Below are positions 4,241-55,820 of a stretch of DNA of 64,000 nt, one piece after another. Origin of the DNA: Sulfobacillus sp. (lineage in GTDB: Bacteria; Bacillota; Sulfobacillia; Sulfobacillales; Sulfobacillaceae); contig DAIDDL010000024.1 in assembly GCA_027309085.1 (NCBI GenBank), positions 1-64,000 on the forward strand, written 5' to 3'. A program made the translations under genes and the position numbers. Positions within the stretch are counted from its first letter, which is position 1. The number at the start of each line of letters is the position of its first letter. Below the pieces are notes generated by a model. The model did no database searches and was not told where the DNA came from. It was given only the letters and a program-made list of their open reading frames with translations.

Positions 4241-4729
4241 ATGTCGGCACCCGACCAAAACTGCCAAGAGCTCTGCACCGCCATTGCCAGCGGCGTCTCA
4301 GCGCCTGTTAAGGCCCTGGGCGTCTGCGACTACCAAGTGTCCAACCCCCTTGAAGATGTGGTTGTCACCGGTTGCACCGTGGAAGAAGCGTTCGCCACTC
4401 CCATCAGCGACACGAGGGTGTTGGTGACAGTCAATGTCGCCGTGGACTTCACCGCCGTGGAAGCATCGAGCGGCCTTCCCTTTAGCGCCCAATGCGAGAC
4501 GTCCATCCCTGTGATTGTCACTCTCGCTCCACCACCGGCGGCCACGATATCCGAGCAATTTCCGTGCACCACCGACGTAACATGCACCGCCCAGTACGCC
4601 GGTTTCGAACCAGCTCCGTCTCCAGACATCAGTGCCGAAGAGTTTATCATCAGCGTCACCGGCAGTGTTTCCTGCACCAGTTGCGCGCCCGCCACGGTCA
4701 ACGTGCAACTGTGTCCGACTGCAGACTAG
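4241..4729 (+). CDS. Cys-rich beta-type protein, paralogue B (unknown function)
   Basis: This 162-residue product is a clear paralogue of the preceding one. Shared landmarks are an N-terminal C-x3-C, VVVTGCTVEEAF, VNVAVDF, CTAQYAGFEP, and SVSCTSCAP near the C-terminus. ATG 4241 is preferred over TTG 4238 because the ribosome site AAGGAGGG (4227-4234) spaces correctly to the ATG. A strong rho-independent terminator follows within about 10 bases of the stop, so the pair forms a short two-gene unit. No signal sequence or membrane helix is seen. Function is unknown; a structural surface protein is possible. Confidence 0.65.
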   Translation: MSAPDQNCQELCTAIASGVSAPVKALGVCDYQVSNPLEDVVVTGCTVEEAFATPISDTRVLVTVNVAVDFTAVEASSGLPFSAQCETSIPVIVTLAPPPAATISEQFPCTTDVTCTAQYAGFEPAPSPDISAEEFIISVTGSVSCTSCAPATVNVQLCPTAD

Positions 4730-4739
4730 CAAAACAAAC

Positions 4740-4778
4740 CGGGTCCCCCACACCAAGGGGGTCCCGACTTTCTTTCTT
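4740..4778 (+). terminator. Rho-independent terminator after the Cys-rich pair
   Basis: Arms 4740-4749 (CGGGTCCCCC) and 4757-4766 (GGGGGTCCCG) pair with one mismatch around a 7-base loop. A T-rich tract (actttctttctt) follows at once. Confidence 0.85.
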
Positions 4779-4997
4779 ACCTTGCAAAAGACGACGCCTC
4801 AGTTCGCACCCCACCTCCGACAGTAATTGGGGACGGTCATCGCCAACCCCTAATCGAGATGCGGATCGAGTTTTGGGCCATAAGTGCTCCCTTTTAGTTT
4901 CGGGCGGCATATCTCCCTCCGATTACCCCCATTTCGCCCTCTCGCCTGCATAGGGGCCATGGCGGCGATGCACTCTACGCAAAAAGGAGGATACCTC

Positions 4998-5216
4998 ATG
5001 GCCCAATTCAAACTTCCTGATCTGCCCTATAAGCTCGACGCGTTGGAGCTATGCGGTTCAACCGCGCGGAATGGAATGTGGGTAAGATTTGACGCTTACA
5101 CAGAACCGGTGTGGTCACGAAAGTGTCAGATTGCGAATACAGTAGTCGAAAGACCTTTCCACCCCGGGCGAGTTTGGTTCCTACGACAAAGGAGGAAACG
5201 CGTTGTCCAAGGTTGA
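4998..5216 (+). pseudogene. sodA N-terminal stub fused to unrelated sequence
   Basis: A strong ribosome site (AAAAAGGAGG, 4981-4990) precedes an ATG whose first residues, MAQFKLPDLPYKLDALE, match the start of Fe/Mn superoxide dismutases. The family would continue with P-H-(I/F) and the metal-binding His-rich helices. Here the sequence turns to LCGSTARNGM and has no further SOD character. No metal ligands are present, so the product cannot be a dismutase. The open frame runs on to 5216 and overlaps the start of the next gene by 14 bases. The simplest reading is a recombination joint just after codon 17 that left the sodA promoter and translation start in place. Confidence 0.55.
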
Positions 5217-5646
5217 GAGTAATGCAAAAACAGCAAACGACCCATTGTCGTCCAATCCACCGTCTCACTACAATCACGAGAATGTGGATCCGTCAGTGCT
5301 GGTCGATTGCAGCGTGACGCTTAAGCCTCAGTACGTTCCCGGCGGGACGGTTTGGATTCGGCAAGGCCCCGGCAATGAGGCCACTATTTTAATCATCGTC
5401 GAGAACCTACCCGATCCCCGCACCTTCGGAGAGGAGTTTACCGATTACTGGTACATCATCTACGGCGTCATCGAGCGCCGCATGGGTCGGTTGGAAGGCA
5501 CCTCCATCTGGTTCGCTTCGCATTCCGGCACCGATCTCCCGGTACCGTTTCCTCCGTTAGCCCCGGTTTCGATTGTTCCCGGCACGAAAGGAGAGCCCGC
5601 TGCAGGGTTTGCCGTTCTCGACGGCAATCTACGGGATTGCCATTGA
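5203..5646 (+). CDS. Hypothetical protein
   Basis: A strong ribosome site (AAAGGAGGA, 5189-5197) sits correctly for a TTG start at 5203. The 147-residue product begins with a polar, Asn/Ser/His-rich segment. It continues with VDCSVTLKPQYVPGGTVWIR, FTDYWYIIYGVIERRMGR and a Pro-rich stretch, and ends FAVLDGNLRDCH. I see no signal peptide, membrane helix or known motif. Two Cys flank the folded part. A rho-independent terminator lies about 50 bases downstream, which supports this as a real transcribed gene. I do not recognise the family. Confidence 0.5.
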   Translation: MSKVESNAKTANDPLSSNPPSHYNHENVDPSVLVDCSVTLKPQYVPGGTVWIRQGPGNEATILIIVENLPDPRTFGEEFTDYWYIIYGVIERRMGRLEGTSIWFASHSGTDLPVPFPPLAPVSIVPGTKGEPAAGFAVLDGNLRDCH

Positions 5647-16839: not shown

Positions 16840-18125
16840 CGGGAAGCGTGGCCTATTTGGAGTGTCCGGCGGGCGTGAGTGGCAACATGCTTCTGGGAGC
16901 GTGGCTGGACACGGGTATTTCCGAGGCCGTCTGGCGTGAGATGATGGCCCCTGTGCTCCTGCCGGGTGTGACGGTGGAAATCGCCACGGTGTATCGTCAG
17001 GGCATTCGGGCGACACAGGCCACCGTCCGGGTTTCTGACGAGGAATTATGGTATGAGGGAGATCCGGCGCCTGCCCCGTCCGTGCACCCGCACCGCCATT
17101 GGGCAGAGATTGACGCGCTCATCACCGGAGTTCCAGGACTGCCGGATATTGTAAGGCACCTAACCCGCCGGACGTTTTGGCTATTGGCCGAGGCGGAGGG
17201 CCGGGTTCACGGGATCGCCCCCGAACAGGTGCACTTTCATGAGGTGGGCGCCTATGATGCCATCGTGGACATCACTGGGGCGTTTTGCGGCTGGTATCTA
17301 GCCGGCTCTCCCCGCTGTTTTGTATCTCCAATCGAGGTGGGCGGGGGCACGGTGGCATGCGCTCATGGGAAGCTGCCGGTGCCTGCTCCGGCCGTGGCGA
17401 TTCTGCTGGAGGGGCTGGTGACTTATTCCTCCGGCAATTGGGGCGAGACCGTAACCCCAACGGGCGCGGCGGTTGTCCGCGCATTGCTGGAGCATTCTCA
17501 GAGCATGGGCGTGTCCGCACCGCTTTTAGTGTCCCGTACCGCCGGCTATGGAGCCGGCACCCGGGAATTTCCCGTTGCCAACCTGTTCCGGATCCGTCTC
17601 GGGGACGAGGCGGCCGACAGCTTGATGCCCCGGGCGGGCGGCACTGTAGTGGAACTGACGGCCAACCTGGACGACATGTCGCCGGAATGGGTAGGGGACG
17701 TAACTCAAGAATTGCTTGCGGCTGGGGCTCTGGATGCGTGGGTGACGCCGGCGGTCATGAAGAAAGGACGGCCCGGGTGGGTGCTGGCGGTTTTGGCGGA
17801 ACCTGCGCGAGAGGGAGCTCTGACCGACCAGATGCTCCGGTGTACGACTTCTTTAGGGGTGCGACGCATGGAGCGGCAACGGACGGTCTTGGAGCGTAGC
17901 TGGGAAGTGGTGGCCACGCCCTACGGGCCGGTGCGGGTGAAAATTGCGGGTCGGGGCGGGGACGTGTGGAACAGCGCGCCGGAATATGAGGACTGCCGCG
18001 CCCGTGCACAAGAGGCAGGGGTTCCTCTCAAGGAAGTCTACCAGGCGGCATGGACTGCTCTTCGCACGGCAGCATCAGAACGACACGGCGCCGCGCGGGA
18101 CGGTAGTGGCAGGAGAGGAGATTGA
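16836..18125 (+). CDS. larC: LarC, nickel insertion protein for the pincer cofactor (fused form)
   Basis: LarC inserts nickel into the pyridinium-bis-thiocarboxylate cofactor using CTP. The 429-residue product starts YLECPAGVSGNMLLGAWLD and contains a His-rich linker (HPHRHWAEI), VHFHEVGAYDAIVDI, VGGGTVACAHGKLPVPAPA, and TPTGAAVVRALL. A C-terminal domain follows with ELTANLDDMSPEWVG and VMKKGRPGWVLAVL. In some lactobacilli larC is split and joined by ribosomal frameshifting; here both halves are in one continuous frame. It overlaps larB (ATGA) and is followed after 2 bases by the start of a disrupted AKR gene. Confidence 0.93.
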   Translation: MTGSVAYLECPAGVSGNMLLGAWLDTGISEAVWREMMAPVLLPGVTVEIATVYRQGIRATQATVRVSDEELWYEGDPAPAPSVHPHRHWAEIDALITGVPGLPDIVRHLTRRTFWLLAEAEGRVHGIAPEQVHFHEVGAYDAIVDITGAFCGWYLAGSPRCFVSPIEVGGGTVACAHGKLPVPAPAVAILLEGLVTYSSGNWGETVTPTGAAVVRALLEHSQSMGVSAPLLVSRTAGYGAGTREFPVANLFRIRLGDEAADSLMPRAGGTVVELTANLDDMSPEWVGDVTQELLAAGALDAWVTPAVMKKGRPGWVLAVLAEPAREGALTDQMLRCTTSLGVRRMERQRTVLERSWEVVATPYGPVRVKIAGRGGDVWNSAPEYEDCRARAQEAGVPLKEVYQAAWTALRTAASERHGAARDGSGRRGD

Positions 18126-18409
18126 GGATGGAATACCGGCAATTGGGAAAGACGGACCTCACCGTGAGCGCCCTCAGTTTTGGCACGTGGGCCATCGGCG
18201 GGTCGTGGGGGGCAGTCAAAGATCAAGAGGCGGGCGAAGGAATTGCAAGGGCTGTGGATTTGGGCGTGACGCTGTTTGATACGGCCGATGTCTATGGGGA
18301 CGGCCATGCAGAAGAGCTGTTGGGAGCCGAGACCCGCCACCTCGCTGACCGGGTGGCTATTGCCACGAAATTTGGGAGATCAGGGGACTGGCAAGCTCCG
18401 GCTAATTAT

Positions 18410-19362
18410 CAAAAGAGCCGTAAAACCCCTAGCTTCAGCTATGGGGATATAAGGCGCTCGCCGTCAGGGGAATTTTTGGTATTTACACACTAACCACTTG
18501 GCATATCCTATCTATATAGAAAGAAGGTGACGAATGTGTACTTGGCACAGAGTAACCAAATCAAGGGACTCGACAAAAGTGAATACGAAGCCTTGCGGGA
18601 AATGTGCCGGTATGCGAAGAATCTCTACAACGTTGGCTTGTATTCGAGCCAGTATTTCTTTGCGGAAGGACGGTATTTGCGCTACGAGTCGACCTATAGG
18701 GCCGTGAAGGATAACGAGAATTACGTTTTACTGCAAGCCGGTGTGAGCCAGCAAATTCTCAAAGTAGTCGACCGCTCATTCCGTTCCTTCTTTAACCTAC
18801 TCAAGAAGGCGAAGAAAGGCGAGTATCGCTTTCATGATGTGCGGACTCCGCACTATCTGGAGAAGGACGGCTACTTTCCACTGATTCTATCGACGAATGC
18901 GATTGTCATTAAAGACAGCTACTTGCAAGTCCCCATGTCGCGTGCGTTTCAACGATTGCACCCAGACTTGGAGCGAATCAAAATTCCCTTTCCGTCCCGT
19001 TTGGATGATAAAACCATCAAAGAAGTTCGCATCCTGCCGATTGAGAAAGCGCGGTTCTTCAAAGTGCAATTCGTCTATGACGTGAAGGAAGAACCACAAC
19101 CGACGTGGTCGGGAGACAAGGCCCTCGATAAACCGCAACAATCAAGTGCGAGACTACATGATGAAGTCGGTGCGGTACATTGCAAACTACTGCCTTACTG
19201 AACGCAGACGCGAACGGTGCCGCAAATATCCTTCGCAAAAGTAACCACAGACTCGATGTTGAGCGAGTGGCTAGGGGGCTTTTGGCGAACCCTTTGCGAG
19301 TAAAGCTGACGTAAGTCGGTTCCTCGCAAGAATCTCCCGGCTTTAGCCGTGGGGGGTGTCAA
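18410..19362 (+). mobile_element. Non-autonomous IS200/IS605-type element with deleted tnpB
   Basis: The left end follows TTAT (18406-18409) and carries a foldable stretch (AACCCCTAGCTTCAGCTATGGGG). The right end has the typical subterminal hairpin CTCCCGGCTTTAGCCGTGGGG just before GTGTCAA. No tnpA is present. The same left end, also preceded by TTAT, occurs on the other strand at 27707-27794, which supports the boundary. The 3' part of tnpB and the right end normally encode the guide RNA of TnpB nucleases; that part is retained here. It interrupts the AKR gene. Confidence 0.8.
18536..19314 (+). pseudogene. TnpB, internally deleted
   Basis: TnpB is the RNA-guided nuclease of IS605/IS607 elements. 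The N-terminal 190 residues (MYLAQSNQIKGLDKSEYEAL, LYNVGLYSSQYFF, QAGVSQQILKVVDRSFRSFF) are present from GTG 18536. Then come only short islands: a VRDYMMKSVRYIANYCL helix and the C-terminal DANGAANILRKSNHRL. The RuvC Asp/Glu segments and the zinc-finger CxxC pairs are lost through internal deletions. The protein is inactive, but the 3' end that specifies the guide RNA scaffold remains. Confidence 0.8.
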
Positions 19363-20028
19363 ACCAGATTCATTGCCCGCCGACATGGGTGATTGAACAA
19401 GGAGATGTCTTTGCCGTGTTGGACAGGCTCCAGCAAGAAGGCAAAATACGCTATTACGGAGTCAGCGTGGAAGCAGTGGATGAAGGGCTGCAGGCTTTGC
19501 GATATCCAGGCGTCCGGGCCTTGCAGGTGATCTTTAATATTTTCCGGAAGAAGCCGTTAGAGACCTTGTTTGTGCAGGCAGCGGCCCAAGGCGTGGGCAC
19601 CCGTTGGCCAGCGGGCTGCTTACGGGGAAGTTCTCGCTGACCATACGTTTCCTGCCGACGACCACCGGGCATTCAACCGCAACGGTGAACAGTTTAATGT
19701 GGGAGAAACATTTGCCGGCGTGCCCTTTGCGAAGGGCGTGGAACTGGCCAAAAAACTCGGGTGGATTGCTGAGACACGCGGAACAATGGCCCGCGCGGCC
19801 TTACGCTGGGTGATTGACAGTCCCGGGGTCACGTGTGCCATTCCCGGGTTTAAATCGGCGCAGCAAGTGGAAGACAATGTCCAGGCCTTGGACGTTCCCC
19901 ATTTCACGGCGGCCGAAGTGGCCAGACTCCACCAATTTTATCTTGAAGAAGTGGAACCGGTGATTCGCGGGCGTTATTAACCGAGCCGGTGCGCAAAAAA
20001 ATGTTTTCCAGAAGGGAATGAGGGGACA

Positions 20029-41142: not shown

Positions 41143-42444
41143 TCATTGCATTTTTCGCAGAATGAATAATTGTTCCCCATTCATTGTTGCCATCTTGTCT
41201 CCGGGCTGGTTGGTCGGGCTGTTTTCCTTGGGCATGCGCTTGTTCGGAATAGTCCGCGTCACGGTGGTGACAGGGACCAAACCATAGCGCGCTCCCAACT
41301 CGATGATAATGCGGTCAGTGAGCAATTGGATTTTTTTTACCGTCCGGTTGCCCACAACCCAACACTGGTAGCTGCCCGGCCGCATGACGCGGGCAATTTC
41401 GCTCAAGGTCCGGTCCAAGTCCTGATAAAAAGCCAGGACTTGGACCGCCCGCACAGCATCTCGAGCGGAAATTTGGTTGAGGGCCGCCTGCAGGGTTGGG
41501 GACGGGGGAATGGCAAAGGGACCCTTTGCGGCCTGCCCGCCGAGGAGAGCTTGGTCCAGACGATTGGGCGCGGGGCTGGTGGCTGCGTCTTCCAGGTCGA
41601 GCCACTGGAGGGACAGCCGGGAAAATTGGCCGTAGGCCACCGTGGTCCGGCTGTCGCCATACGGAGGGGAAGTGACCATAACATCAAAATGATCTGCGGG
41701 CAGGGCGGAAAGGTCCATGGCATTGAAGGCGTGGAGCGATACCGGAGGGAGGGGCTGGCACCTCCACAGGCGCGCATTGCCCAATTGGTTGCGCGCCATG
41801 ACCCGCTGGAACGCCGCGAGCACATCGGGATTCCACTGGGCCAGCCGGGGTGCATCAAGACGATAGAGTTTAAATTCGGTATTCCGGCTGTTGGAGACCC
41901 ATCTAACGGTGTCCGAAAATGCTACCCAGAAAAATGGCTGGACCGGCGCGGGCACGACTGTGGCAATACTGCGCTTGAGCCGGCTGAGATCGGCAATAAC
42001 CACGGGCTTAAACCAAAAGGTTAAATGGTCAAACGTTGGCCAGTCGGCCTCAAAGACAGTGAGAGCGCCGACATGGGACGCGACCGCATCCATCCAGTAT
42101 TGCAGGACATCAGGATCCCATGCAGTCGTTTTGGTGAACGCCAGCAGCCGCGACAAGGGATTCAAGTCGGATCCCGTTACGGCCAGTCCCGCCAAGAGGC
42201 CTTCTACGAGGCTGGTGCCGCTCCCCATAAAGGGGTCGAAGAGCGTGCCTATGCCCGGACGGTTTTGCTTAATAACTTGAATGAAGCTGCGGGCGATCTG
42301 GGGGATCATCATTGCAGGATAACTGTGGTAGCCGTGCGTCCACTCCTTGGTGTCGGCTGAAACAAAATCCCAGTAGCCTGCCGGCATCTGCTGGACCGTG
42401 CGGCGAATCGCATCATCTGAAGAAAGAGGCAATGAAATAGCCAA
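41143..42444 (-). CDS. DNA methyltransferase (amino-methylating)
   Basis: The 433-residue product carries AdoMet motif I as TLFDPFMGSGTSLVEGLL at about residues 67-84, with GSDLNPLSRLLAF after it. Motif IV is VTSPPYGDSRTTVAYGQFS near residue 260. TSPPY points to N4-cytosine or N6-adenine methylation. Motif I before motif IV excludes the usual beta-class order. The start has HGYHSYPAMMIPQIARSFI, common in this group of stand-alone or type II methyltransferases. No endonuclease gene is adjacent, so it looks like an orphan methylase. The recognition site cannot be read from sequence. Confidence 0.85.
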   Translation of the reverse strand: MAISLPLSSDDAIRRTVQQMPAGYWDFVSADTKEWTHGYHSYPAMMIPQIARSFIQVIKQNRPGIGTLFDPFMGSGTSLVEGLLAGLAVTGSDLNPLSRLLAFTKTTAWDPDVLQYWMDAVASHVGALTVFEADWPTFDHLTFWFKPVVIADLSRLKRSIATVVPAPVQPFFWVAFSDTVRWVSNSRNTEFKLYRLDAPRLAQWNPDVLAAFQRVMARNQLGNARLWRCQPLPPVSLHAFNAMDLSALPADHFDVMVTSPPYGDSRTTVAYGQFSRLSLQWLDLEDAATSPAPNRLDQALLGGQAAKGPFAIPPSPTLQAALNQISARDAVRAVQVLAFYQDLDRTLSEIARVMRPGSYQCWVVGNRTVKKIQLLTDRIIIELGARYGLVPVTTVTRTIPNKRMPKENSPTNQPGDKMATMNGEQLFILRKMQ

Positions 42445-52858: not shown

Positions 52859-53072
52859 CACGGCCAAACAGATGACATCACGCAATGGACGCATGCGTTG
52901 CTGATGGCAGAGATGCCTGAAGTGCAGAACTGTTCGGAGGCGGCGAGGGCAAAATGTGGTCACCATGATAAGACGGATAAATCCATCAGAATAGCTTGCG
53001 AGCGAAGAAGGAATCCTCCGGTTTATCCCGAATTAACCCTGTAAATGCTGAATGCGCTGAAAGGAAAAAATT

Positions 53073-53396
53073 ATGCCCGCTTACAATAAACTAGTGAGAG
53101 ACAAGATTCCCGACATCATCCGCCAAGACGGAAAAACATGCCGGGTCCGCACGCTGTCCATGGCAGAAATGAAGCCCATGCTGCAGGCCAAGCTCCAAGA
53201 AGAAGCGGCGGAGTATCTTGGATCCGCCACTGATTCCCTGGCGCTGGAGGAACTCGCCGATATACTGGAGGTTATCGGGGCATTAGCCCGGCTGCATGGG
53301 GCCAGCATGGAGCAGCTGGCGGACATCCAGAAGAGCAAGCAGTCCGCGCGGGGGGGATTCGACCGGGCGGTATTTCTCATCGACGTGAATGACTAG
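53073..53396 (+). CDS. MazG-like nucleotide pyrophosphohydrolase
   Basis: The 107-residue product (YNKLVRDKIPDIIRQDGKTC, LQEEAAEYLGSATDSLALEE, LADILEVIGALARLHG) belongs to the all-alpha NTP pyrophosphohydrolase group. The metal-binding E-x2-E and the later E-x2-D are present (KLQEEAAEYL; LEELADIL). Such enzymes cleave non-standard nucleotides, and several act in phage defence or nucleotide depletion. The stop codon TAG directly abuts the ATG of the helicase gene, with no spare base. Translation is probably coupled and the proteins may work together. Confidence 0.85.
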   Translation: MPAYNKLVRDKIPDIIRQDGKTCRVRTLSMAEMKPMLQAKLQEEAAEYLGSATDSLALEELADILEVIGALARLHGASMEQLADIQKSKQSARGGFDRAVFLIDVND

Positions 53397-55820
53397 ATGA
53401 GGCTGGTGACACATAATCTGGTCAGCACTTTGCGCACACAGCTTAACCGGGCGCAAGGGGTCTATTGGCTGGTGGCATTTACGATGGCGTCGGGTGTCGA
53501 GCTCTTGCTGCCGGAGCTTCAAGAAGCTGCAGTGCGGGGCGCCGATATCAAGATTCTTACGGGAGATTACCTGTATGTTACCGAACCCGAAGCGCTGGCC
53601 AGGCTGCTAGCCGTCCTGCCGGAGGCTGAAATCCGCCTGTGGCAGAGCCGTGGCCAGTCATTTCATGCCAAGGCCTATCTGTTTGCACAGTCTGGCGAGG
53701 ATGATACCGTGATCGTGGGGTCGTCCAACTGGTCCGCATCGGCAATGACCAGCGGGGTTGAATGGAACCTCATGGTGCGAGACGCCTCGATTAACGGCCT
53801 GGAGCGATTCATGCGCCTGTTTTACGCTGACCGGACTGTGCCGCTCAACACGGTCACGCTGGCCCAGTATCAGAGGCAGTGGGAGCGGTTCCGCAAGAGC
53901 CACCCTGACTGGGCCAGGACATGGAGTGAAGGTGAGTCGGCGACGCTCATGTTTGATCCTGGAGAGGCCGCAGGCGCTTGCGATATTATCCCGGCCCGTC
54001 CGGAGGACCGGGCACCGATTCCGAGGCCTGTGCAGTCGGAGGCCCTGCTGGCCCTTTCTGCGACGCGTGAGGAAGGATACCGCAAGGCCCTGGTGGTTTT
54101 GCCGACGGGCCTCGGAAAAACGTATTTGGCGGCTTTTTTCGCGAAACAATTCCGGCGCATCTTGTTTGTGGCCCACCGGGAAGAGATTCTTCGCCAGTCC
54201 CTGCGGACTTTTCAGGACGTCATGCCGGAACGCCGCTTTGTGATGTATTCGGGACGCTCTGAAAAGACGCAGGACGGCATCTTCGCTTCGGTCTATACCC
54301 TTGCGGGAGAAGCCCACCGCAGAAGTTTTGGTCCTTCAGAGTTTGACTTGATTGTTGTGGATGAATTTCACCACGCCGCGGCCCAGTCATATATGCGCAT
54401 CCTGCAGCATTTCCAGCCCGAATTTCTGTTGGGGCTGACCGCCACGCCCGAACGGACTGACGGGCGTGACATCTTTGGACTGTGCGACGGCAACCTGGCC
54501 TACCAGCTTTCATTGTCAGAGGCAATCAACCGGGAATGGCTGGCTCCGTTCTGGTACGCCGGCGTATACGACCCGATTGACTACTCCCGGTTGCGCTGGC
54601 GGCAAACTCACTATGACGAGGAAGATCTGCTCCGCGCGCAGTTGGATTCTCATCATTCTGCGGCAGTTTTTCAGGCCTGGCAGGCGCATCGTCAGACGCG
54701 TACGTTGGGATTTTGCAGTTCAGTGCGCCATGCGGAATTTCTCGCGCAGGAATTTGCACAGCGCGGGGTCAATAGCACATGGGTTCATTCTGGCTCCGGA
54801 CGGGACAGGCGCCGCCAGGTCCTATCCGATCTGGCACAGGGCCGTCTCGATATTGTCTTCAGCGTCGACCTCTTCAACGAAGGCATTGATATTCCTTCGG
54901 TGGACACTATTTTGATGGTGCGTCCCACCGATTCGTCGATTGTGTTCATTCAGCAGCTGGGCAGGGGGCTGCGGCGCTCTCCTGGGAAAAGTTACTGTAG
55001 AGTCATCGATTTGATTGGAAATTACCGCAATGCGGATGCCAAGATCCGGTGGCTGGGAGTCAAGAATGCGGTGGCGCTGGCGGCGGGCGGGATAGAGGCC
55101 GTTAGAGCAGGATTGCCTCGCGCCTGCCGTTTGGACTTAGACCTCCAGGTGATCGACGTGCTGACGCGCCTGATCCGCCAGCAGACGCCGCGAAAGACTC
55201 TCGTGCTTCATGCCTACCAGCAAATGAAAGAGGACCTCGGACGCCCCCCGTCGTATTTGGAATTCCACTTGCGCGCGGGGATCGACTCACGGATGGTGCA
55301 TCAGGAATTTAAGGCTTATGCGGGGCTGAAAAGCGCTGCGGGAGACCTTACAGGCCATGAAGAGGCAGTGTGGGAGCGGTACCGTGAATGGATGCACGAG
55401 GTCGAGACCACCAGCATGGTCAAGAGCTATAAGATGGTCCTTCTCAAAGCCATGCTGGCGCGGGGGCCCCACAACTGGTGGGCACCCATCACACCGAAAG
55501 ACGCAGCCGGCTACTTTTACCGCTACCTTACCGCGGAGGAATACCGCAAGCGGACAGATTTCTCGGATAAGACCACGCGGGCCCTGTGGGAGTACCGGCA
55601 AGGTCCGGTGGCGAGCCTCATCCGCCGCATGCCCATGACCCAGTGGAGCAAAAGCAGCGCGGGGTGGGTCGTGCTGGATGCGGAGGGATTTCACATCCGG
55701 CTGGACAGCGCCGCCGCGGAGTCTCTCGCCACCCTGGCGGAGTGGACGACTGACGTGGCGGAGTACCGGCTGCACTGGTATTTTGAGCGCAAGGCACAGC
55801 TTCAGGGCGGTTCCCGGTGA
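53397..55820 (+). CDS. PLD nuclease-superfamily II helicase fusion
   Basis: The 807-residue product has an N-terminal PLD domain with one H-x-K site (QSFHAKAYLFAQ, about residues 88-99) and GSSNWSASAM. A superfamily II helicase follows: Walker A VVLPTGLGKTYLAAFFAK (about 232-250), FVAHREEILRQSLRTFQ, DEFHHAAAQS (about 321), LTATPERTD, STWVHSGSGRD, and QQLGRGLRRSPGKSYCRV (about 518). NYRNADAKIRWLG marks a known group of DUF3427-like helicases. The last 200 residues are helical with no known motif. It follows the MazG-like gene without a gap. Nuclease, helicase and nucleotide hydrolase together suggest phage or plasmid defence. Confidence 0.85.
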   Translation: MRLVTHNLVSTLRTQLNRAQGVYWLVAFTMASGVELLLPELQEAAVRGADIKILTGDYLYVTEPEALARLLAVLPEAEIRLWQSRGQSFHAKAYLFAQSGEDDTVIVGSSNWSASAMTSGVEWNLMVRDASINGLERFMRLFYADRTVPLNTVTLAQYQRQWERFRKSHPDWARTWSEGESATLMFDPGEAAGACDIIPARPEDRAPIPRPVQSEALLALSATREEGYRKALVVLPTGLGKTYLAAFFAKQFRRILFVAHREEILRQSLRTFQDVMPERRFVMYSGRSEKTQDGIFASVYTLAGEAHRRSFGPSEFDLIVVDEFHHAAAQSYMRILQHFQPEFLLGLTATPERTDGRDIFGLCDGNLAYQLSLSEAINREWLAPFWYAGVYDPIDYSRLRWRQTHYDEEDLLRAQLDSHHSAAVFQAWQAHRQTRTLGFCSSVRHAEFLAQEFAQRGVNSTWVHSGSGRDRRRQVLSDLAQGRLDIVFSVDLFNEGIDIPSVDTILMVRPTDSSIVFIQQLGRGLRRSPGKSYCRVIDLIGNYRNADAKIRWLGVKNAVALAAGGIEAVRAGLPRACRLDLDLQVIDVLTRLIRQQTPRKTLVLHAYQQMKEDLGRPPSYLEFHLRAGIDSRMVHQEFKAYAGLKSAAGDLTGHEEAVWERYREWMHEVETTSMVKSYKMVLLKAMLARGPHNWWAPITPKDAAGYFYRYLTAEEYRKRTDFSDKTTRALWEYRQGPVASLIRRMPMTQWSKSSAGWVVLDAEGFHIRLDSAAAESLATLAEWTTDVAEYRLHWYFERKAQLQGGSR

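Follow-up and report, generated by a model that had tools for sequence, protein, structure and literature searches.

An SRA-less relative of SauUSI and its MazG-like partner in Sulfobacillus: probably a variant of a defence system with a patchy distribution in Bacillota

LAYOUT OF THE LOCUS

The window, that is, the whole stretch of 64,000 nucleotides analysed here, comes from a 4.5 Mb draft genome of Sulfobacillus sp. and carries on its forward strand a gene for a MazG-like protein, followed by a gene in which a PLD-type nuclease, an SF2 ATPase and a helical coupler are fused (Table 1). A preliminary description, made from the sequence alone, had reported two abutting genes. Both open reading frames were recovered, and the junction between them reads ...GAC TAG ATG AGG..., with the stop codon of the first directly followed by the start codon of the second. 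The G+C content of the pair (0.589) is close to that of the window (0.578), and composition therefore shows no trace of recent entry. The neighbours of the pair in the window are metabolic genes, as had also been described, and none is a defence gene.

Two further features of the window deserve mention. The orphan methyltransferase of the preliminary description corresponds to an ORF (41143-42444, minus strand) with weak matches to the UPF0020 and N6_N4_Mtase models; nothing links this ORF to the pair. In addition, at 18122-19980 an aldo/keto reductase frame appears, by eye only, to be split by a transposon-type OrfB-like ORF (18527-19201).

Table 1. Features of the gene pair, with positions in the window.
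Feature	Position	Strand	Remarks
Shine-Dalgarno-like GAAAGG	53059..53064	+	8 nt 5' of the MazG-like ATG; predicted from the sequence
MazG-like gene	53073..53396	+	107 aa; predicted COG4997-like all-alpha NTP pyrophosphohydrolase; PRA-PH profile, model, recurrent partner
Predicted metal-binding motif E43-E44-x-x-E47 ... E60-x-x-D63	53199..53261	+	Conserved in partner proteins
PLD nuclease - SF2 ATPase - helical coupler gene	53397..55820	+	807 aa; SauUSI-related, without SRA/DUF3427
N-terminal PLD-type nuclease domain, ~residues 1-170	53397..53906	+	PF13091 at residues 13-132; aligns with the SauUSI nuclease domain
Predicted HxK active site H90-x-K92; G108-S-S-N111 and E122 further on	53664..53672	+	H90, K92, N111 invariant in 83 relatives
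SF2 helicase-like ATPase, ~residues 206-556	54012..55064	+	PF04851, PF00271; structural match to RadD and to the SauUSI ATPase
Walker A LPTGLGKT (235-242)	54099..54122	+	K241, T242 invariant in 83 relatives
Walker B / motif II DEFHH (322-326)	54360..54374	+	D322, E323, H325 invariant in 83 relatives
Motif VI QQLGRGLR (519-526)	54951..54974	+	R523, G524, R526 invariant in 83 relatives
C-terminal helical region, equivalent of the SauUSI coupler; protein ends there	55065..55817	+	Profile and HMM match, first half
HNH_repeat-like (PF18780) helical motif inside the coupler	55206..55343	+	Sub-threshold; window protein and three relatives tested

THE LARGE PROTEIN AND ITS RELATION TO SauUSI

The 807-aa protein matches the Pfam models for PLD nucleases (PF13091, E 7e-13), ResIII/DEAD (6e-34) and Helicase_C (8e-16). 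Its residues 7-546 are recognised by the PADLOC Type IV restriction model mREase_IV (E 2e-96), and by far its best sequence match in the PDB is SauUSI (7clg; E 6e-82, or 1e-122 with the family profile, over SauUSI residues 40-671). The PLD-type nuclease and SF2 helicase of the preliminary description are confirmed by these Pfam, PADLOC and SauUSI matches. An assignment to Mokosh or DISARM finds no support, since MkoB (7e-5) and DrmC (2e-7) are weak secondary matches compared with mREase_IV. The 83 relatives compared, drawn from all three clades discussed below, share without exception the residues H90, K92, N111, K241, T242, D322, E323, H325, R523 and R526. The preliminary description had named a lack of conserved HxK and Walker residues as evidence against a defence module; the HxK, Walker A and DExH residues are in fact invariant.

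SauUSI, a Type IV restriction enzyme, consists of a nuclease, an ATPase, a helical coupler (residues 618-805) and an SRA recognition domain (806-953) (PMC7913695); the last of these reads 5-methylcytosine. The window protein shares with it the PLD HxK nuclease, the linker, the SF2 ATPase and the first part of the coupler, arranged as in SauUSI and with the same invariant residues (7clg; PMC7913695), but it has no SRA/DUF3427 target-recognition domain and ends where the SRA domain of SauUSI begins. A Pfam search of the 807-aa protein gave no match to DUF3427/SRA, and the SRA model matched 0/55 SRA-less relatives vs 28/28 SRA-bearing forms. Because this reader was looked for and not found, the pair is classified here as a SauUSI-type variant and not as a Type IV member. 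This matters for annotation: an automatic procedure would label the large protein a methyl-directed Type IV restriction enzyme in spite of its lacking the domain that reads methylation, and the PADLOC label mREase_IV is wrong if it is taken to mean "methyl-directed."

In the preliminary description, the C-terminal 200 residues were thought to be devoid of any recognised motif. This view has to be revised: their first half is equivalent to the SauUSI coupler and they also contain a sub-threshold HNH_repeat (PF18780). When the C-terminal region was compared with the coupler of SRA-bearing forms, the profile comparison gave 88.8%, over the first ~120 columns only. The structure prediction that had been suggested for the C-terminus was made on the whole chain (mean pLDDT 77.8), and its best Foldseek match was again 7clg; superposed as a single rigid body, the model covers 7clg residues 41-799, but at 29 Å rmsd, so that for the second half of the coupler the correspondence is no more than suggestive. 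The large protein has retained the nuclease and the SF2 motor of SauUSI and, at the least, the beginning of its coupler.

Two other groups of proteins invite comparison. In CglI and NgoAVII, a PLD nuclease likewise acts with an SF2 ATPase, but these are two-subunit systems that include a methyltransferase and a B3 domain for recognition (PMC7913695), whereas nuclease and motor are fused here, and no B3 domain was found in the fused protein of the window. For the ATPase part, the best structural match by VIA-align is RadD (Z 28). RadD shares this SF2 core but has neither a PLD domain nor a MazG-like partner, and an identity with RadD is not supported, the NCBIfam equivalog model scoring 108.8 bits against a cut-off of 720.

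THE MazG-LIKE PROTEIN

The small protein of the window carries the motif EExxE(12)ExxD and falls just below the PRA-PH cut-off, which its orthologues at L036 and L045 exceed. Among the partner proteins, E43, E47, E60 and D63 are present in 113/113 and E44 in 112. The predicted structure is an all-helical, four-helix model with a pLDDT of 96. Together, the motif, the profile matches and the model uphold the earlier MazG-like assignment. Comparisons of greater depth gave fainter signals: a profile search produced weak links to HISN2, iMazG, YpjD and MazZ, and PRA-PH and MazG proteins top the Foldseek list, but with E-values of 0.15-0.6, none significant singly, and with a VIA Z of ~6, which does not rise above the background seen with helical bundles. 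The protein therefore shares with MazG, PRA-PH and DCTPP1 the EExxE...ExxD motif, a weak HISN2/MazZ profile match and, to judge from the model, probably the all-helical fold; it differs from them in being short and single-domain, in having its own YNKLVRD and RGGF signatures and in remaining below the Pfam cut-off.

Since the active-site residues are conserved in both proteins, both partners are expected to be catalytic. One locus, L041 (8621-8941, plus strand), has a degenerate MazG-like partner beside an intact nuclease; it shows the substitutions G44, K59 and K66 and an altered C-terminus, with the four invariant ligands still present.

CONSERVATION AND DISTRIBUTION OF THE PAIR

A scan of one genome per species returned 346 relatives of the C-terminal region, of which 80, nearly all from Bacillales, were kept. 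Of the 97 loci that represent the clade of the window protein (a few of which stand for one genome taken from two collections), 93 show a MazG-like gene directly upstream in the same orientation, and this arrangement is seen in Sulfobacillus, Bacillus, Geobacillus, Planococcus and Paenibacillus. In most of these loci the two frames overlap by 1-20 nt. Four loci are without the gene: L159 and L175 are truncated at the start of their contigs, and at L163 and L210 the gene is genuinely missing and a HIT hydrolase is encoded in the vicinity. At L163, a TIR-domain gene (4325-5299, plus strand) lies between the HIT hydrolase and the SRA-less PLD-SF2 gene.

The pairing was not found in 40 control regions, and given its recurrence in the clade, chance was rejected as an explanation. 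Distances between the partner proteins correlate with those between the nucleases (r = 0.87 within the clade; all permutations at or below 0.26), which would follow from joint inheritance and is equally expected from shared vertical descent. The supposition of the preliminary description that the two products are made together is in keeping with a conserved gene pair, and the pair is almost certainly a functional unit.

Within the family to which the window belongs, 16 of 34 genomes contain a strong match to the large protein, full-length or nearly so in 13 of them, and the MazG-like gene was directly upstream in 14/14 loci examined. The site of the pair varies: the upstream carboxylase gene is found without the pair in two congeners, and in S. 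thermotolerans the downstream ROK and xylulokinase genes are kept with the pair next to different upstream genes. Several copies of the pair are broken. With a patchy occurrence and no fixed chromosomal site, conserved synteny of a core region was rejected; a universal and syntenic pair, which the preliminary description had named as the outcome that would speak against a defence module, is not what the family shows. On viral contigs no relative was found with the C-terminal profile, and PHROGs recognised neither partner, apart from the general helicase core. Plasmid and phage records do contain SauUSI-like proteins, among which no full-length SRA-less form of the clade was identified.

THREE CLADES AND THEIR HYDROLASE PARTNERS

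In a tree built on the PLD and ATPase columns, from which the C-terminus was excluded, well-supported branches separate three monophyletic clades: (i) the clade of the window protein, (ii) a sister clade that is also SRA-less, and (iii) the SRA-bearing forms. The window protein thus falls outside the SRA-bearing clade, and it differs from SauUSI in this placement as well as in its obligate-looking MazG-like neighbour. In the 24 loci of SRA-bearing relatives, a MazG-like gene is present once, a HIT gene once and a NUDIX gene 11 times. Four of the NUDIX proteins were tested, and all of them hit models for MutT and pyrimidine-dNTP diphosphatase; the loci at which a MutT/NudG-like NUDIX gene adjoins an SRA-bearing gene of the SauUSI type are L121, L132, L118 and others among L118-L139. 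The genome of the window itself encodes a 1048-aa SRA-bearing paralogue on contig C107 (L049, 7320-10466, minus strand), with an N-terminal extension of ~140 aa that matches no Pfam family and with no MazG-like neighbour.

The sister SRA-less clade has the reverse gene order. A MazG-like gene lies downstream in 18 of its 31 loci and a HIT gene is present in 14, with one or the other in at least 22; at L110, HIT and MazG are fused in one ORF.

These patterns bear on the main rival to the role that we propose below for the partner, namely that the MazG-like protein is a nucleotide-sensing regulator of the nuclease. Such a regulator would explain why the MazG-like partner accompanies precisely the subfamilies without an SRA reader. 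The overlapping frames point the same way, as they suggest stoichiometric, translationally coupled synthesis, and the interchange of MazG-like and HIT proteins suggests that nucleotide handling is what counts. However, NUDIX genes also adjoin SRA-bearing forms, in which recognition already exists, and the sister-clade loci L089, L093, L100, L103, L112 and L114 have neither MazG-like nor HIT genes nearby. We regard a regulatory role as rather unlikely.

DEFENCE CONTEXT

In 74 Bacillales loci, the genes found near the pair include SauUSI-like (23), NUDIX (17), GmrSD (11) and McrB (10) genes, whose identities were verified. At least one of the SRA form, GmrSD, McrB, McrC and PDC-M33A was present in 43 of 76 loci of relatives vs 0 of 40 control stretches chosen arbitrarily from a dozen or so genomes; as the neighbour models were made from the recurrent neighbours themselves, it is the contrast with the controls that counts and not its significance. 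The enrichment near defence genes that the preliminary description had suggested looking for is accordingly seen in relatives, whose pairs lie in Type IV restriction islands, and not at the window. The idea that the large protein must form a heteromer with a SauUSI form encoded nearby is not supported, because an SRA-bearing form is near in only about 1/4-1/3 of the loci; S. thermotolerans, moreover, shows no second strong match.

The pair is patchy, variable in its site, sometimes broken and, in relatives, close to SauUSI, McrBC and GmrSD, and for these reasons a role in defence against phages or foreign DNA is likely. Genome maintenance without any defence function offers a different explanation, in which a RadD/XPB-like repair motor with a nuclease would work alongside a house-cleaning enzyme that removes damaged nucleotides. 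The RadD match of the ATPase part and the metabolic neighbours in the window agree with it, and MazG, NUDIX and HIT proteins are classical house-cleaning enzymes. Nevertheless, maintenance appears improbable in view of the patchiness of the pair within a family and even a genus, its variable sites and its broken copies. It also fits poorly with the frequent proximity, in relatives, of SauUSI, McrBC, GmrSD and other PADLOC genes (0/40 controls), and over its full length the nuclease resembles SauUSI far more than RadD.

Pfam, NCBIfam, PADLOC 2023 and PHROGs hold no family that describes a MazG-like/PLD-SF2 pair. Similarly, no description of the pair was found in open-licence PMC papers on MazG with PLD/helicase, COG4997, DUF3427, or NUDIX/HIT with Type IV. 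The pair is probably an undescribed variant of a system for defence against phages and foreign DNA, patchily distributed across Bacillota.

PROPOSED MECHANISM

It seems to us about an even call that the pair belongs, as a variant, with the ATP-dependent restriction enzymes of the SauUSI kind and that its MazG-like member serves to remove non-canonical nucleotides. By analogy with SauUSI, the large protein would act as a dimer bridged through its PLD domains, which would load on foreign DNA, move along it with the energy of ATP hydrolysis and cut it (PMC7913695). As there is no SRA domain, the choice of target must have another source; the helical coupler may provide it, as may the partner protein, or the enzyme may respond to the ends or the structure of the DNA. 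The MazG-like enzyme, for its part, would remove non-canonical (d)NTPs, whether these are modified dNTPs of phage manufacture or nucleotides recycled from shredded modified DNA. This removal, by which the host genome would be kept free of bases that invite self-cleavage or aid the phage, is the least certain step of the scheme. The human MazG-type enzyme DCTPP1 acts on 5-methyl-dCTP (PMC4491611, PMC7162842), and phages produce hm5C through conversion of the dCTP pool (PMC3874153). No route is known by which an enzyme lacking the SRA domain could recognise modified DNA, so that any link of the pair to modified bases would be indirect. Taken by itself, nucleotide clean-up is a tentative proposal for the role of the partner, which we hold with a little less assurance than the scheme as a whole.

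The preliminary description had favoured nucleotide depletion. According to this explanation, the nuclease would cut DNA at the time of infection and the MazG-like enzyme would deplete the dNTP pool, thus halting phage replication. Nucleotide depletion is an established defence strategy, and the catalytic residues of the MazG-like protein are conserved. On the other hand, no sensor or switch was seen that would hold a depleting enzyme silent, close relatives of the MazG-like protein occur alone, and the NUDIX and HIT families, to which the analogous partners belong, are not annotated as depleting nucleotide pools. Nothing that was tested points to bulk dNTP depletion, which we judge very unlikely; given the interchange of MazG-like, HIT and, beside SRA-bearing relatives, NUDIX partners, nucleotide clean-up or sensing fits at least as well.

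The clean-up reading can be extended, more speculatively and on balance doubtfully, to the whole group. Each subfamily of PLD-SF2 restriction nucleases might have a small nucleotide hydrolase of its own, be it MazG-like, HIT, a HIT-MazG fusion or NUDIX. Restriction would then operate on two levels at the same time, the DNA polymer and the pool of modified building blocks. This could starve phages with modified bases or prevent self-attack after shredding. If the hydrolase partner is functional, restriction would be linked with nucleotide-pool control, a link that is absent from the defence databases and from the papers found. The pair is common in harmless and tractable Bacillales and is therefore open to direct testing.

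OTHER NEIGHBOURS OF MazG-LIKE RELATIVES

Of the closest MazG-like relatives, searched for in 299 genomes, roughly half adjoin an SRA-less PLD-SF2 gene. The rest include neighbours of DUF2357-PDDEXK_7 nucleases, of a PbeC/DndD-like gene and of a helicase that carries a weak REase domain, as well as several relatives without a nuclease in the vicinity. HIT-MazG fusions were encountered at L110 (7779-8519, plus strand), next to an SRA-less PLD-SF2 gene, at L320 (3570-4274, plus strand), next to PbeC/DndD-like and MzaA-like genes, and at L326 (483-1226, minus strand). At L323 (4388-6871) and L324 (3508-5904, minus strand), a MazG-like gene lies by DUF2357-PDDEXK_7 nucleases, with no PLD-SF2 gene in the stretch. 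Finally, a single genome (G102) encodes two helicases of 755-771 aa that adjoin a MazG-like gene (L126, 1782-4094, and L313, 1220-3484, both on the minus strand), and in these proteins a weak MTES_1575 REase domain takes the place of the PLD domain.
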